Source: Streptococcus anginosus (GTDB lineage Bacteria > Bacillota > Bacilli > Lactobacillales > Streptococcaceae). From it: DNA of 64,000 bases. Numbering within the stretch: the first letter of the stretch is position 1; each line of letters opens with the position of its first letter. The position numbers and the translations under genes are program-made. This document shows positions 658-6,028 of the stretch, in pieces. A model generated the notes under the pieces. It had not been told where the DNA came from, searched no databases, and saw only the letters and a program-made list of their open reading frames with translations. Location of the stretch: NCBI RefSeq assembly GCF_001697145.1, contig NZ_CP012719.1:1708501-1772500 (forward strand), in the 5' to 3' direction.

Positions 658-3600
658 TTAAGCAACAGCAATATACCGTCTCTTTCCGCTAAAAGCAATG
701 TAAGAAATCCATGTCGCACCATCTGCATTCAAAACCTTATCATAAGTGACCGATTGCCCGGCATCATAATAAGCCAATTCAGGAGCTGACATTCTAGCTT
801 CTGCTTTGATAGAGGAGCGTTTTGTAAAACGATATACACCTTGAGCAGGGATAGAGGGTGTTTGGGGAGACGGAGTCGTTGGTTTTGACGGGGTTACTGA
901 TGAAGCGTAATCTCCACCTTCAAAGCCATAATATTCCTCTAAACTCAAACCAGAATGGTAAACTTCATCAGCTTCCTTACCGATGTAACGAATATGCCAT
1001 GCTTCTGGCATGTATCCTGTCGAAGCTTCTTTCCCTGGTTGGTAACGGACTACAAAACCGTAGCGATGTGCATTGTTCTTCAACCAATTACTTGCAGCAG
1101 CGTCCTCTAAAAGATTGCCCGCTTTATCCGTTAAATCAAAGACAAGACCTGTTTGGTGCTCACTATAACCCGGACGTGCAGAGTAACGATCCGCAGCAGC
1201 TTGACCATCTTTGTTCACATAATTTTGATACAGAACCTTTTGATAATCATAACTTCTAAATCCGCTGTAAGCATAACCAACATTATAGCCTTGAGCAATC
1301 ATATCATTTCTTAATCGAAGAAAGGCAGCTTTTGCAGTTGGATTTTCACCAGGATTGTAGTTAGCAGCCATCGGATGTTTTTTATTTGCCACTACAATCT
1401 CGTCATATTTTCCTTGGACAAAGTAGTAAGAGCCATTATATTGTACTTCTTTTACACTCGTTTGAGATCCTTCCACCTTAGTCGTAGTACCCGTTACACC
1501 CTGCAAACTACCGTCCGACTGAACATAGTACATGTGTATGTTATATTCACCACGATTATTTTTATGACGGCGGATATCCACACTCAACTTATAACTGCCA
1601 TCATTTTGCTTAGCAGCATCGTACCAGATCACATCATCTTGACCGCCTTGGCTGGACCAAACAGGCAGCTTTACTGTCTTCACACCCTTGGTCGAGCTGA
1701 CATTCGTCACCACCACATCAAAACCTTGCGAAGTCTTGTTTTCAATGTGAATCGTGCCAGTCACCTGAACAGGTTTGGGAGCTTCTTCATTTGTTAAGGT
1801 TGCAATTGGGATATAGCGACGTGTACCACTGTAGCTAACATAACTAATCCATTGATGATGATCTGCGTCCAATACCTTATCATAGCGAATTCTTTCTCCT
1901 CTTGCAAAGGTAAATTCAGTCTTAGCCGTCATTGTGGGACTATTTTTGACTTCAACTTCCTTTTTAAAAGTATAAACTCCTTGAGACGGAATGGATTCTC
2001 TTGCAGAACTTGGTGCCACTACGGTTGTCTTGGTACCGCTAACACCTCTTACTTTGCCATTTGATTCAATGTAGTAAAGGTGAATATTATATTCGCCATA
2101 TTCCCCCTTGTGCTTGTCAACATTGACAGAAACTTTATAATTTCCATCACTTTGCTTAGTGGCATCATACCAAATAATATCGTCTTGACCATCCTTATCT
2201 GTCCAGATAGGAACTTTCACTCTAGAAATTCCATTGCTGTCTGACGCATTTGTAATCAGGACATCAAAGCCTTGAGATGTCTTATTTTGAATGTTAATGG
2301 TGCCAGTCACACTATATTTTGGCTCTTCCACCTTAGTCGTGGTACCCGTTACACCTTGCAAGCTACCATCTGACTGAACGTAATACATGTGAATGTTGTA
2401 TTCGCCTCGATTATTTTTATGGCGACGAATATCCACACTCAACTTGTAGGTGCCGTCTATTTGCTTGGCTGCATCGTACCAGATGATGTCATCTTGACCG
2501 CCTTGACTGGACCAAACAGGCAGCTTCACTGTCTTCACGCCTTTGGTGGAGCTAACATCTGTCACTACCACATCAAAACCTTGCGAAGTCTTATTTTCAA
2601 TGTGAATCGTGCCGGTCACACTATATTTAGGTTCTTCCACCTTAGTCGTGGTACCCGTCACACCTTGCAAGCTGCCGTCTGACTGAACGTAATACATGTG
2701 CACATTATAGTCACCGTAGTTATTCTTATGACGACGAATGTCCACACTCAATTTATAAGTGCCGTCATTTTGTTTAGTGGCATCGTACCAGATGATGTCA
2801 TCTTGACCGCCTTGGCTAGACCAAATAGGCAACTTCACCGTCTTCACACCCTTGGTCGAGTTGACATTCGTCACCACCACATCAAAGCCTTGCGAGGTCT
2901 TATTTTCAATGTGAATCGTACCTGTCACTTGACTTTGAGCTGGTCTTTGAGGTGCTGGCTGAGCTAACTTTGTAACAGCTGCATAACGACGCATTCCACT
3001 ATAAGAAATATAGCTAATCCATTGATAACCATCATTTTCCAGCACTTTATCATAGTTAACGCTATCGCCTCTATTAAAAGTAAATTGTGTCGGAGCTGAC
3101 AATTTGGCTTCATTCTTAACCTCTGTCGTTCCAGAGAAAATATATCTTCCTCTAGAAGGGAAAGTTCCTGTTGAAGAAGGTGTTTGCTTTGCTGGCTGTT
3201 GAGGTTCAGATTGAATCAGCTTGTTAATAGCCGCATAGCGACGAGCTCCACTATAAGAGCGGTAACTTAGCCATTGGTATCCATCTGCAATCAAAACTTG
3301 GTCGTAAAAAACGCGATCCCCCGCATTCACATAAAATTGCAATGCTGCACTTGCTTTTGGTTCATTCTTCACTTCCGTACGTTTCGTATAAGTGTAATAG
3401 CCCTGACTTGGTAAAGAAGGTACACTTTGCGCTACTTTGGATTCTGCCAGACGTGCTTCGTGCGCTGTTTGCGTTTTATCCATCAATTTCGCAACATCAA
3501 TTTCTTCTTTTCCTGCTTCTTTTTCGACAGGACTCTTTTCAATTTTTGCAGTTGTTGAAGGGGTAGCTGTGTCTGTTGTTGCATCAACAGATGAATTTGT

Positions 3601-3963
3601 TGTTTCGTCTTCTGTCTGTGTCGCTGCATCAACAGTCGTTGGTTGAGAAGGTGTCGTCTCTGTAGCTACAGAAACAGCTTTATCCGCTGAAGAACTAGTT
3701 GGCGCAGTTGTTGTTACAGCAGTTTCTTTTTGAGTTGCTGCTGATTGAGAAGACACATCAGTTGATTCAATTGTGTTTTGAGTCTTATTTACTGTGCCAA
3801 CTTGAGCCGCTTCTGGTACTGTTCCAGTCGTGGCTTGTTCATCAGCTAACACGGTTTGACCGCCCATAAAGAGGACACATCCAATCAAAACAGAAGCCGC
3901 ACCGCACGAATATTTACGAATGGAAAAACGTTGTTCTTCGTGATCAAACATTCTTTTTTTCAT
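658..3963 (-). CDS. Secreted surface protein with SH3_5, GBS Bsp-like repeats and a VanY-type D,D-carboxypeptidase domain
   Basis: This 1101-residue protein starts at the ATG at 3963. A GTG three bases upstream is also in frame but is too close to the AGGA ribosome site. Order of parts: YSIRK-type signal peptide (FSIRKYSCGAASVLIG, cleavage near VLADEQ), a Thr/Ser/Ala-rich stalk to about residue 180, SH3_5 domains near 185-250 and 270-335, three GBS Bsp-like repeats (345-645), a third SH3_5 (655-720), a fourth Bsp repeat (730-825), a VanY peptidase (about 835-1010), and a terminal SH3_5. The peptidase keeps the zinc motif SEHQTGLVFD and the PEAWHIRYIG segment, so it is probably an active D,D- or L,D-carboxypeptidase on peptidoglycan stems. 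There is no LPXTG anchor, so wall attachment is presumably through the SH3 domains. The Bsp repeats are nearly identical at DNA level. It is the last gene of the putative pheromone locus. Confidence 0.9.
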   Translation of the reverse strand: MKKRMFDHEEQRFSIRKYSCGAASVLIGCVLFMGGQTVLADEQATTGTVPEAAQVGTVNKTQNTIESTDVSSQSAATQKETAVTTTAPTSSSADKAVSVATETTPSQPTTVDAATQTEDETTNSSVDATTDTATPSTTAKIEKSPVEKEAGKEEIDVAKLMDKTQTAHEARLAESKVAQSVPSLPSQGYYTYTKRTEVKNEPKASAALQFYVNAGDRVFYDQVLIADGYQWLSYRSYSGARRYAAINKLIQSEPQQPAKQTPSSTGTFPSRGRYIFSGTTEVKNEAKLSAPTQFTFNRGDSVNYDKVLENDGYQWISYISYSGMRRYAAVTKLAQPAPQRPAQSQVTGTIHIENKTSQGFDVVVTNVNSTKGVKTVKLPIWSSQGGQDDIIWYDATKQNDGTYKLSVDIRRHKNNYGDYNVHMYYVQSDGSLQGVTGTTTKVEEPKYSVTGTIHIENKTSQGFDVVVTDVSSTKGVKTVKLPVWSSQGGQDDIIWYDAAKQIDGTYKLSVDIRRHKNNRGEYNIHMYYVQSDGSLQGVTGTTTKVEEPKYSVTGTINIQNKTSQGFDVLITNASDSNGISRVKVPIWTDKDGQDDIIWYDATKQSDGNYKVSVNVDKHKGEYGEYNIHLYYIESNGKVRGVSGTKTTVVAPSSARESIPSQGVYTFKKEVEVKNSPTMTAKTEFTFARGERIRYDKVLDADHHQWISYVSYSGTRRYIPIATLTNEEAPKPVQVTGTIHIENKTSQGFDVVVTNVSSTKGVKTVKLPVWSSQGGQDDVIWYDAAKQNDGSYKLSVDIRRHKNNRGEYNIHMYYVQSDGSLQGVTGTTTKVEGSQTSVKEVQYNGSYYFVQGKYDEIVVANKKHPMAANYNPGENPTAKAAFLRLRNDMIAQGYNVGYAYSGFRSYDYQKVLYQNYVNKDGQAAADRYSARPGYSEHQTGLVFDLTDKAGNLLEDAAASNWLKNNAHRYGFVVRYQPGKEASTGYMPEAWHIRYIGKEADEVYHSGLSLEEYYGFEGGDYASSVTPSKPTTPSPQTPSIPAQGVYRFTKRSSIKAEARMSAPELAYYDAGQSVTYDKVLNADGATWISYIAFSGKRRYIAVA

Positions 3964-3997
3964 CACTTGTCCTACTTTCTAATTTATGTTTATCATC

Positions 3998-4099: not shown

Positions 4100-4184
4100 A
4101 GGAATCCTTAAATTCCAAAATCATTATACAACTTTGTTTTGTAAAAATTAACACATTTTATAAATGTTTGTAATTTATTTGTAA
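4099..4184 (-). repeat. 86-bp duplicated promoter module, copy 1
   Basis: This segment is repeated at 4771..4856 in the same orientation with only a few differences. On the minus strand it contains, in order, two TTACAAA-like motifs, the palindrome ACATTT-ATA-AAATGT (4167..4153), a 24-base gap and a perfect TATAAT (4128..4123). It lies about 136 bases upstream of the surface protein start, so the predicted transcript has a leader of roughly 150 bases. No good -35 box is present, which suits an activator-dependent promoter. Confidence 0.75.
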
Positions 4185-4221
4185 TATTTCTCTTGTCCAA
4201 GAAAAAAGGTTAACAATATCT

Positions 4222-4752
4222 TTAATGTTTTACATCTGAATAGGCTATGTAGTAACGCTTAGACTCTGTTCCATTAGAAACTACAAAACTATACCAATTT
4301 TCACCGTTTTCAAAAACATACTGATCCCAATCAACATTTCCTTTAGGATAAGTATAAGCAACTTCGCTTGATTTATCTGGTGAAGCATAAACTGGCGTGT
4401 CTTGGTACAGTTCAAGAGTTCCAGAGGTCACTTGAGTACCTCCTCCTTGAGATTGAACAATTGAAGAAGTCGAAGATTGCTGACTACTTGCACTATTTTG
4501 GCTATTTGAATTACTAATCTCTGATGATTGAGCATTTGTAACCGAATTGTCTTGCTCTTTATCAGTTGTTTTATTATCATTAGTAGACGTTTTGTTATTT
4601 TGAGAAGCTTTTGTCTTTTTAGAGCTACTACTTTTTGTTGTTTTTACTGAATGTCCATTTGTCCCACTTTTGACTTCGTTTTTATGACAAGCACCAAGTA
4701 AGAGCATAGAGCACAACATGGTTACACTTGCTAATTTATATGAATTTTTCAT
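4222..4752 (-). CDS. SH3_5-domain lipoprotein
   Basis: This is a 176-residue lipoprotein. The signal peptide ends in the lipobox LLLGAC (Cys at residue 22). A long Ser/Thr/Asn/Lys/Gln-rich linker (about 25-108) leads to one SH3_5-like domain at the C-terminus (TLELYQDTPVYASPDKSSEV onward to YYIAYSDVKH). That domain is of the same kind as those of the neighbouring surface protein, so both products probably sit at the cell wall, this one tethered to the membrane. The start at 4752 follows AAGAAGGGA. Transcription should come from the second copy of the duplicated promoter module, whose end lies 19 bases upstream. The coincidence of shared promoter and shared domain argues that the two genes are co-regulated. 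The exact role is unknown. Confidence 0.85.
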   Translation of the reverse strand: MKNSYKLASVTMLCSMLLLGACHKNEVKSGTNGHSVKTTKSSSSKKTKASQNNKTSTNDNKTTDKEQDNSVTNAQSSEISNSNSQNSASSQQSSTSSIVQSQGGGTQVTSGTLELYQDTPVYASPDKSSEVAYTYPKGNVDWDQYVFENGENWYSFVVSNGTESKRYYIAYSDVKH

Positions 4753-4770: not shown

Positions 4771-4856
4771 CAGGAATCCTTAAATTCCAAAATCATTATA
4801 CAACTTTGTTTTGTAAAAATCAACATATTTTAGAAATATTTGTAATTTATTTGTAA
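4771..4856 (-). repeat. 86-bp duplicated promoter module, copy 2
   Basis: Second copy of the module at 4099..4184. The palindrome here is ATATTT-CTA-AAATAT (4839..4825), and TATAAT is at 4800..4795, again 24 bases away. Relative to copy 1, the second base of each arm has changed in a compensating way (C/G to T/A), so the dyad is preserved although the sequence is not. Confidence 0.75.
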
Positions 4857-4870
4857 CAATTACCTTGTTC

Positions 4871-4924
4871 TCATATTCCTGATAGGAACAACAAAATTTT
4901 GATAACATTTTTTATGTTTTTCAC
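4871..4924 (-). CDS. Short hydrophobic peptide gene, putative pheromone precursor
   Basis: GTG at 4924 opens a 17-codon frame encoding MKNIKNVIKILLFLSGI, ending TGA at 4871. It is preceded by AAAGGAG, 10 bases from the GTG, and by a promoter with TTGAAA, a 17-base spacer and TATAAT. The product has a Lys/Asn N-terminus and a hydrophobic C-terminus. That is the shape of streptococcal SHP, XIP and PapR-type precursors, which are exported, trimmed and re-imported to bind an RRNPP regulator. The PlcR-like regulator gene lies immediately upstream on the same strand, as in comRS. The active peptide would probably be the last 7-9 residues, but this is inference. Alternatively it is a leader peptide of the downstream lipoprotein gene. 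Confidence 0.62.
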   Translation of the reverse strand: MKNIKNVIKILLFLSGI

Positions 4925-4951
4925 AGAATTAAATCTCCTTTCTAGGTACAC

Positions 4952-4997
4952 ATTATATACCTTTGAATAAACTATTTCAATAGATTTTTATAAAAAT
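4952..4997 (-). promoter_or_regulatory. Peptide gene promoter with upstream palindrome
   Basis: On the minus strand, the palindrome ATTTTTATAAAAAT (4997..4984) is followed three bases later by TTGAAA (4980..4975), a 17-base spacer and TATAAT (4957..4952). The core TTTATAAAA is identical to the centre of the palindrome in promoter-module copy 1. Its distance to the -10 box differs by one base (25 versus 24). This is the position expected for a class II activator. Confidence 0.65.
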
Positions 4998-5081
4998 AGT
5001 TATTTTTTTTGTAATTATGACTATAATTATCTCACATGTTTGGATATATTCACTTAGTTTTAAGGTAGCAGTTCAAAAAAT

Positions 5082-5137
5082 AAAACACGAATAAAATTAG
5101 CCCCATAATCAACTGGACATAAGATTATTCGTGTTTT
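5082..5137 (-). terminator. Large-loop inverted repeat after the regulator gene
   Basis: The 13-base arms AAAACACGAATAA and TTATTCGTGTTTT flank a 30-base loop, followed on the minus strand by ATTTTTTG. It begins 18 bases after the regulator stop and probably ends that transcript before the peptide gene. The loop is long for an intrinsic terminator, so an operator role cannot be excluded. Confidence 0.5.
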
Positions 5138-5155
5138 CTAAAATTTATCTTTAAC

Positions 5156-6028
5156 TTACACTTTTTGAAAATTATCACGAAGATACTTTTCAAGCGTCAA
5201 CGCCATTTTTTCATTACCGCTTAGTTTATATAATACTTGTGAAAGCGTAAAATAGTGTTTTACAATACTTTGGCTAGAAAAATCCTCGCTAATATTTGCT
5301 AATATACAGTATAAATCTGCTAATAAATAACTACAACTGTATTCATTACATTTTTCAATAACATCAAGCGTTTCCTCTATTCCCTTTTCAATCTGAGAGC
5401 TTTTCCAAAGATAGCGACAAAAATTATATCTAATTTTAATATAAATTTTCAACTCTATTATATGAGTAAAGTCAATACTTTGAAGTTTAGGTAGTACTGC
5501 TTGATAACATTTTTCAAATTCATCATTATTTTTTTCTTCTAAAAAGAAATTAAGCAAGGTATTAGAGATACGAAGGTACATTAACTCATCTTTATTTAAT
5601 CGCACAAGCATTTGTTCTAATTTTTTAATAGCCTCTTCTCTTTTATTATCACAATGAAATGAAACAATTGCCCCTATCCATTCAAGATAATTTTGGTCTG
5701 ATAGTGGCAATCTATGTTGTTTATCAATTTCTAAACTGTATAAATATTTTAATGAATCATACTCACGCTTTACTAGAAAGGATTCTACCAGCTCTTTGAA
5801 TTGTACCAACTTAGATGTCTCATCAAGTACACTATCATCAAAAAAATAATTCATTGTTACATTCATTTTTTTCGATAATGAATATAAAAGATCCGAACCA
5901 GGCATATACTTGCCTTTTTCCATTCTACTAATCTGACCTTGCTCACATACCCCTTCGGCTAATTCTTTTTGGGATAACCCTAATTCCAATCGTTTACTTT
6001 TTAATCTTGTAGCTAATAATATACTCAT
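5156..6028 (-). CDS. PlcR-like XRE/TPR transcriptional regulator (RRNPP type)
   Basis: This 290-residue protein has an N-terminal XRE helix-turn-helix (about residues 6-60: LSQKELAEGVCEQGQISRME, then KGKYMPG). The rest is a helical, TPR-like region with regularly spaced aromatic and Leu residues. Length and architecture match the peptide-binding RRNPP regulators, with PlcR the closest by the helix-turn-helix motif and Rgg/ComR as cousins. The start at 6028 follows GAAGGA at five bases. A 17-codon hydrophobic peptide gene, a lipoprotein gene and a surface protein gene follow on the same strand. I infer that the regulator binds the re-imported peptide and then the palindromes at those promoters. 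Its own promoter has TATAAT at 6066..6061 and a poor -35. Confidence 0.85.
   Translation of the reverse strand: MSILLATRLKSKRLELGLSQKELAEGVCEQGQISRMEKGKYMPGSDLLYSLSKKMNVTMNYFFDDSVLDETSKLVQFKELVESFLVKREYDSLKYLYSLEIDKQHRLPLSDQNYLEWIGAIVSFHCDNKREEAIKKLEQMLVRLNKDELMYLRISNTLLNFFLEEKNNDEFEKCYQAVLPKLQSIDFTHIIELKIYIKIRYNFCRYLWKSSQIEKGIEETLDVIEKCNEYSCSYLLADLYCILANISEDFSSQSIVKHYFTLSQVLYKLSGNEKMALTLEKYLRDNFQKV

Follow-up and report, generated by a model that had tools for sequence, protein, structure and literature searches.

A PapR/TprA-like regulator and a possibly truncated or strongly reduced signal gene upstream of SH3 surface genes in a streptococcus

The PapR/TprA-like family of regulators and its logic are already known. 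PapR of the Bacillus cereus group is a longer secreted precursor. PMC12445099, in its available sections, counts precursors of the type found here beside relatives of our regulator among the PapR/TprA-like ones of S. thermophilus and describes the detection in the medium of a C-terminal peptide derived from one of them. TprA is usually a repressor that is released by PhrA (PMC7595303 and PMC5436883, as excerpted). Here, we describe a locus within a 64-kb stretch of DNA, referred to as the window, at which a regulator gene is followed by a very short hydrophobic reading frame and two genes encoding putative surface proteins. A preliminary description had read this arrangement as a peptide-pheromone circuit. 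Based on sequence comparisons, we put it at about an even chance that an RRNPP regulator has been maintained at this locus while its signal gene was truncated or strongly reduced.

The regulator gene (5156..6028, minus strand) encodes a protein of 290 amino acids with an N-terminal helix-turn-helix domain (HTH_3, 45.2 bits) and a C-terminal RNPP/TPR domain (RNPP_C, 36.2 bits), both above the Pfam cut-off; no NCBIfam model matched at its cut-off. PlcR (PDB 2qfc) is the closest solved relative by sequence (phmmer E 1.5e-14, residues 5-240). The proposed RRNPP architecture and likeness to PlcR were thus borne out. No Rgg model occurs among the Pfam and NCBIfam matches at E 0.001, which comprise RNPP_C and HTH families only, and the matches to PDB sequences at E 0.1 include PlcR and neither Rgg nor ComR. 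Membership in the Rgg/SHP systems was ruled out because of the RNPP_C and PlcR matches and the lack of an Rgg match, and membership in ComRS was rejected as no ComR appeared among these PDB matches. The locus had been likened to comRS, rgg-shp, and plcR-papR pairs alike; this holds for the PlcR type but not for the other two. By its domains, its phmmer matches, and its position in the tree described below, the regulator is PapR/TprA-like (PlcR-type) and not of the Rgg/SHP type. Its residues Asn156 and Asn202, present in 40/41 and 41/41 regulators of the clade, align with Asn159 and Asn201 of PlcR (counted by hand on the alignment), residues with a role in peptide binding. These PlcR residue numbers do not occur in the available text of PMC6568020 or PMC9765709. 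A structure predicted from the single sequence had a mean pLDDT of 45.7. Between pairs of the three genomes that carry close copies (the window, G112, and G196), 13-16 codons of the regulator gene differ by amino-acid-changing and 21-29 by silent substitutions; judged by these counts, the gene is under ordinary constraint, as a working gene. It is followed by a terminator-like hairpin (5082..5137, minus strand; fold -20.5 kcal/mol) with a 13-bp stem and a subsequent T run. Our terminator scan, which accepts loops of 3-8 only, yielded zero sites between 3900 and 5300; the loop of this hairpin is too long to be listed. As the regulator gene ends in a hairpin and T run, a separate promoter probably drives the short frame behind it.

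Homologues were searched in 197 genomes of the genus, one per species. Matches at E 0.001 occurred in 132/197 genomes when weak HTH-only matches were counted. Identities above 90% were found only in G112 (96%) and G196 (95%) besides the window, and the next relatives were 43-55% identical. Relatives of 45-46% identity are located on plasmids of S. salivarius and Streptococcus sp.; none were found in phage records and viral contigs, and scans of genome contigs recovered none. These plasmids and the published precursors assign the window to Streptococcus, and we tentatively read it as part of the S. suis group. A tree was calculated from 65/69 fetched homologues, leaving out the near-copies L015, L016, L017, and L024. 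The regulators of the window, G112, and G196 (the trio) are placed inside a clade of 41 rows that includes propeptide-bearing members, with support of 88/94 for this clade (not starred) and 95/94 for a subgroup of 11 rows. The nearest groups in the tree have propeptides ending GIDTGAYYSPS and EEIFIYAK (L078 group and L081 group); the program cautioned that these two groups may have been joined by long-branch attraction.

Propeptide genes were identified as frames of at least 35 aa on the same strand, within 420 nt of the regulator gene, with a Shine-Dalgarno (SD) sequence, a basic start, and a hydrophobic stretch. Such a frame lies behind the regulator in 17/41 clade members, none of them belonging to the trio. 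In L004, L006, and L018, a frame of this length occurs for which the SD was not recognised, and the frames of L006 and L109 look doubtful. By the filter, 21/41 members, including the trio and counting near-copies, have no such frame; near-copies are retained in all counts on 41 rows, and L012 offers only 229 nt behind its regulator. Many of the propeptides end DPGPAN, and the C-terminus is mostly hydrophilic. Lactococcin-972-type bacteriocin genes are situated near three of the regulator relatives (L034, 8910-9215; L035, 7561-7866; L114, 7148-7444), with an additional gene for a DUF1430 protein in L034 and L114, and on the S. salivarius plasmid pSsal-YU10 the regulator relative adjoins a bacteriocin gene of the same type.

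Behind the regulator gene of the window, at the place of the relatives' pheromone precursor, lies a frame of 17 codons (4871..4924, minus strand; GTG...TGA, MKNIKNVIKILLFLSGI), a candidate mini-pheromone or truncated propeptide. It is preceded by the SD AAAGGAG (4935..4941, minus strand; AAAGGGG in G112), 10 nt before the GTG, and by the promoter TTGAAA-17-TATAAT (4952..4980, minus strand; -10 at 4952-4957, -35 at 4975-4980). All these elements, and the position of the short frame on the same strand behind a promoter of its own, are as the preliminary description had stated. This promoter is the best (11/12) of 9 promoter-like sites between 3900 and 5300, a number close to that expected from shuffled sequence (mean 7.9). 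Both strands of the window were scanned for frames of 14-32 codons that had a strong SD, carried at least two K/R among residues 1-8, and ended in a hydrophobic C-terminus, criteria that were chosen after the short frame had been seen. In the 64 kb only the short frame passed, listed with two nested starts, and a promoter of at least 10/12 was assigned to the GTG-17 form only. The candidate C-terminal peptides are LLFLSGI, ILLFLSGI, and MKNVIKILLFLSGI; a literature search for LLFLSGI returned no match, nor did one combining Streptococcus suis, PlcR, transcriptional regulator, and SH3. An overlapping ATG frame of 42 codons (4780-4908, minus strand) spans the promoter of the following lipoprotein gene and is open in the window, G112, and G196; coding constraint was not apparent in it by eye.

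A short frame of 12-70 codons with some SD is common in itself, as one occurs downstream of the regulator in 24/30 loci. When SD-bearing, basic-hydrophobic frames of 13-32 codons behind the regulator were selected, the filter passed the window, G196 (only from a far-upstream GTG), and L030 alone among the 38 other clade members. By comparison, 17/41 members carry the longer frame. In L030, a 19-codon SD-bearing frame, MYLIKINKKILSKILTVLY, begins about 53 nt after the regulator. At L103 (G140), a PlcR-like regulator of 27% identity is immediately followed by a hydrophobic frame of 22 aa, MKRLHLLSLVALFLLMIPPIIF, which is preceded by a GAGG motif.

Codons 5-17 of the short frame (KNVIKILLFLSGI) are identical at the protein level in 3/3 genomes. 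Together with the stop codon, they contain 2/42 variable columns versus 37/151 in the upstream spacer (p 0.004). Both changes in these codons are silent, for which the chance probability (2/2) is 0.05. From the SD through codon 4, variability is like that of the upstream spacer (5/22 columns, p 1.0): codon 1 reads GTG in the window and CTG and GTT in the other two genomes, and codon 4 reads ATA, ATG, and ATG. Possible in-frame starts are thus GTG in the window, CTG and ATG in the second genome, and ATG in the third. The 13 C-terminal residues are identical in 2/2 orthologues, but the GTG start, on which the preliminary description had relied, is kept in 0/2. The conservation of codons 5-17 with silent changes argues against plain decay; however, the neighbouring block around the next promoter, with 8/106 variable columns in the window, G112, and G196, is equally conserved (p 0.73).

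Since the 13 C-terminal residues are kept in both orthologues, a working peptide survives this comparison. The short frame could be an ultra-short precursor (14 aa from ATG, 17 aa from GTG) with a C-terminal signal of the LLFLSGI type for the PlcR-type regulator, a modified form of the initial proposal that we consider rather unlikely. ComS precursors are of similar length. Such a precursor would fit the location of the frame where relatives have their propeptide, the strong promoter and SD, the protein-level identity with silent changes only, the retention of some in-frame start in each genome, and the lack of any comparable frame in the 64 kb; an 8-aa leaderless signal, MWLLLLFL, is listed for S. 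thermophilus in the available part of PMC12445099. However, neither orthologue retains the GTG, their codon-4 ATG is located 19 nt from the SD, two silent changes out of two may be due to chance at the probability given above, and most signals listed or seen in this family are the hydrophilic C-terminal ends of longer precursors.

The unconserved start codon would also suit a frame that arose by chance, the conserved block being a leader or a regulatory RNA or DNA element of the lipoprotein gene. The continuation of the conserved block into the next promoter and the overlapping 42-codon frame, which is likewise open in all three genomes, point in the same direction. On the other hand, fold energies are not unusual (z -0.3, -1.3, and -1.1), and similarity to G171, a genome with related surface genes, begins only at the WalR-type box, so that the short frame lies outside the common surface promoter. 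We regard a chance frame as improbable.

Truncation or strong reduction of a signal gene is suggested by the shape of the frame: a basic start and a hydrophobic run to LSGI, followed by a stop, as in the signal part of the precursors that relatives carry. Directly after LSGI comes the TGA, and 12 nt further on begins the block of promoter sequence that is shared with G171. Since the frame occupies the pheromone place and 17/41 clade members carry longer precursors, mostly with a hydrophilic C-terminus, it looks like an export-signal half. An adjacent precursor of 35-50 aa with an export signal and a hydrophilic C-terminal signal is not present; there are 14-17 codons only. The likeness to the propeptide signal half was not significant for the protein (241/2000 shuffles as good) or for the DNA (96/1000 shuffles and 44/1500 window segments as good), and proven homology between the two was therefore rejected. 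A profile of ten propeptides gave no convincing match in the own genome, a single contig of 2.0 Mb (best E 8.1); the best match in G112 had E 0.75, G196 gave none, and G171 gave a weak match within a 508-codon frame (E 0.037). In control searches, a training member was recovered strongly and 3/6 left-out propeptides (five genomes) were recovered weakly (L004, L087, and L098, E 0.015 to 0.29), while those of L079, L081, and L084 were missed. Given this recovery of 3/6, the negative result for the own genome is of weak to moderate weight.

The promoter of the short frame is also conserved. From the possible operator to the promoter, 5/53 columns vary among the three genomes compared to 37/151 upstream (Fisher p 0.019), and the promoter-leader blocks have 5/53 and 1/17 variable columns. 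The possible operator, ATTTTTATAAAAAT (4984..4997, minus strand), is located 3 nt upstream of the -35 and was recognised by eye in side-by-side promoters, where it resembles the element TTATAAAAAT found before the -35 in many relatives; in the L078 and L081 groups, TTATAAAAAT was not visible by eye. A position weight matrix (PWM) was built from 19/38 non-window clade members, chosen by hand; near-copies were left out, as were members in which the element could not be seen, including the two groups nearest to the trio. It scored 5.7 at the short-frame promoter with a shift of 1 nt, ranking fourth among the window's 1508 -35-like sites; this score is not significant, as 196/2000 shuffles were as good.

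Two surface genes follow on the same strand. The first encodes a lipoprotein-like protein with a marginal SH3_5 domain (4222..4752, minus strand), which at 21.3 bits is just below the Pfam cut-off of 22; its ATG is located 118 nt from the end of the short frame. The second (658..3966, minus strand) encodes a YSIRK surface protein with four SH3_5 domains, four GBS_Bsp-like domains, and an LdcB/VanY carboxypeptidase domain. The description of two SH3 surface genes was thus correct for strand and for the YSIRK protein but marginal for the lipoprotein. The YSIRK/Bsp-like/LdcB protein varies in length (1102 aa in the window and 1327, 1206, and 937 aa in L031, L032, and L068) and has four Bsp-like repeats in the window versus three in L068. 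Between the surface genes, G112, G196, and G171 have a second lipoprotein gene (DUF6287 in G112), which the window does not have. By blastn against the G112 locus (L031), the window promoter block at 4100-4220, which is retained ahead of the large surface gene, matches the block before this second lipoprotein gene, and the adjacent window sequence matches the stretch at the end of this gene.

Each surface gene has a promoter of its own, TTGATT-17-TATAAT for the lipoprotein gene (4795..4823, minus strand) and TTAATT-17-TATAAT upstream of the large gene (4123..4151, minus strand). Just upstream of both, on the opposite strand, are exact WalR/VicR-type boxes, TGTAAT-N5-TGTAAC (4841..4857, plus strand) and TGTAAT-N5-TGTAAT (4169..4185, plus strand). 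The consensus TGTWAH-N5-TGTWAH and VicR sites on either strand have been described (PMC4168254, available text). These two are the only exact matches in the window; 0.5 were expected, and 11/100 shuffles reached two. The two boxes sit at duplicated surface-gene promoters. A similar promoter stretch precedes a lipoprotein-like (7) or YSIRK (5) gene in 12/14 loci inspected, as judged by ORF starts. The lipoprotein promoter block is conserved in G112, G196, and G171; in G171, two promoters of this kind (96% and 92% identical) precede two lipoprotein genes, which are followed by the YSIRK gene, and neither regulator nor peptide is present at this locus, the best regulator match in G171 being 30% identical and located elsewhere.

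This pattern indicates that the surface genes are probably under WalRK-type control. We see the odds as evenly poised for the wider view that WalRK/VicRK, or another envelope regulator, controls the surface genes, the adjacent regulator-peptide module having no connection with them, which is compatible with the other readings: exact boxes occur at both surface promoters and nowhere else in the window, the stretch recurs before such genes in other loci, and G171 keeps promoters and surface genes without the module. Speaking against WalRK control alone, the operator PWM scores higher at the surface promoters than at the short-frame promoter, namely 11.6 for the lipoprotein promoter (first of the 1508 -35-like sites; 8/2000 shuffles as good) and 13.0 for the large surface gene (5/2000 shuffles as good), the -35 of which is outside the 1508 sites. 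However, the same scores are obtained for the G171 surface promoters in the absence of the regulator, and among nine other surface promoters the scores go up to 8.9 (L045, in G053, which has family regulators) and 7.1 (L056, in G012, no regulator match), so that by these scores the regulator may or may not control the surface genes directly. A palindrome with matching arm changes (ATATTT-CTA-AAATAT and ACATTT-ATA-AAATGT, by eye) before the surface genes was rejected as a regulator site because promoters with this stretch also precede other surface genes of streptococci and because G171, which has no regulator at this locus, retains it. The proposal that the circuit switches wall remodelling by cell density is not supported beyond possible read-through or an unproven operator likeness, since the surface genes have their own promoters with exact boxes and G171 retains such promoters and genes without regulator or peptide.

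For the maintained regulator with a reduced signal gene, the following course appears plausible. Selection would keep the PlcR-type regulator and the promoter behind it, at the place from which a propeptide for secretion is expressed in relatives, and in the trio the propeptide gene would have been reduced to a hydrophobic frame of 14-17 codons, an export signal without the C-terminal pheromone part. The short-frame promoter may be the regulator's own target, and its transcript could read through into the SH3 lipoprotein gene, as the terminator scan gave no site in the 118 nt that follow the short frame. The regulator would then act without its own pheromone, responding to a foreign peptide or being constitutive, or would answer to the reduced peptide, and the surface genes would additionally be driven by their WalR/VicR-box promoters. 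If the short frame is a remnant, the locus would represent a peptide receptor that has outlived its signal; receptors that have no precursor gene beside them may be widespread, as judged by the 21/41 of the filter, and would offer a handle on eavesdropping. If the frame works, it would illustrate the switch of a PlcR-type receptor to another class of signal. In the boldest form, which we think improbable, the receptor would have exchanged a propeptide of 40-50 aa with a hydrophilic signal for an SHP-/LCP-like mini-precursor of 14-17 aa (ILLFLSGI), now driving an SH3 lipoprotein gene instead of a bacteriocin operon, a change of signal class within one genus.

Either way, the finding moves from an Rgg/SHP-like to a PapR/TprA-like system and is set apart from envelope control of the surface genes. 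The streptococcal Rgg/SHP and ComRS systems share with the locus a short hydrophobic precursor with a cationic N-terminus; they differ in that the window regulator matches PlcR and RNPP_C, with neither Rgg nor ComR among the listed matches. PlcR/PapR of the Bacillus cereus group is alike in domain architecture and in the positions of the Asn residues, and 2qfc is the best match. In the salivarius-group PapR/TprA-like systems, too, a short signal gene lies next to that of a PlcR-type regulator, and a precursor ending GIDPGPANIMVK resembles those beside the relatives of 44-47% identity in our set (PMC12445099, available sections); they differ from the window trio, which has 14-17 codons only, without the C-terminal pheromone half. 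TprA/PhrA and TprA2/PhrA2 of S. pneumoniae also consist of a PlcR-type regulator, a peptide, and bacteriocin-linked genes, the latter occurring here in relatives; according to the excerpts of PMC7595303 and PMC5436883, their regulator and peptide genes are oriented in opposite directions, whereas at the locus described here both run in the same direction and the peptide is reduced.
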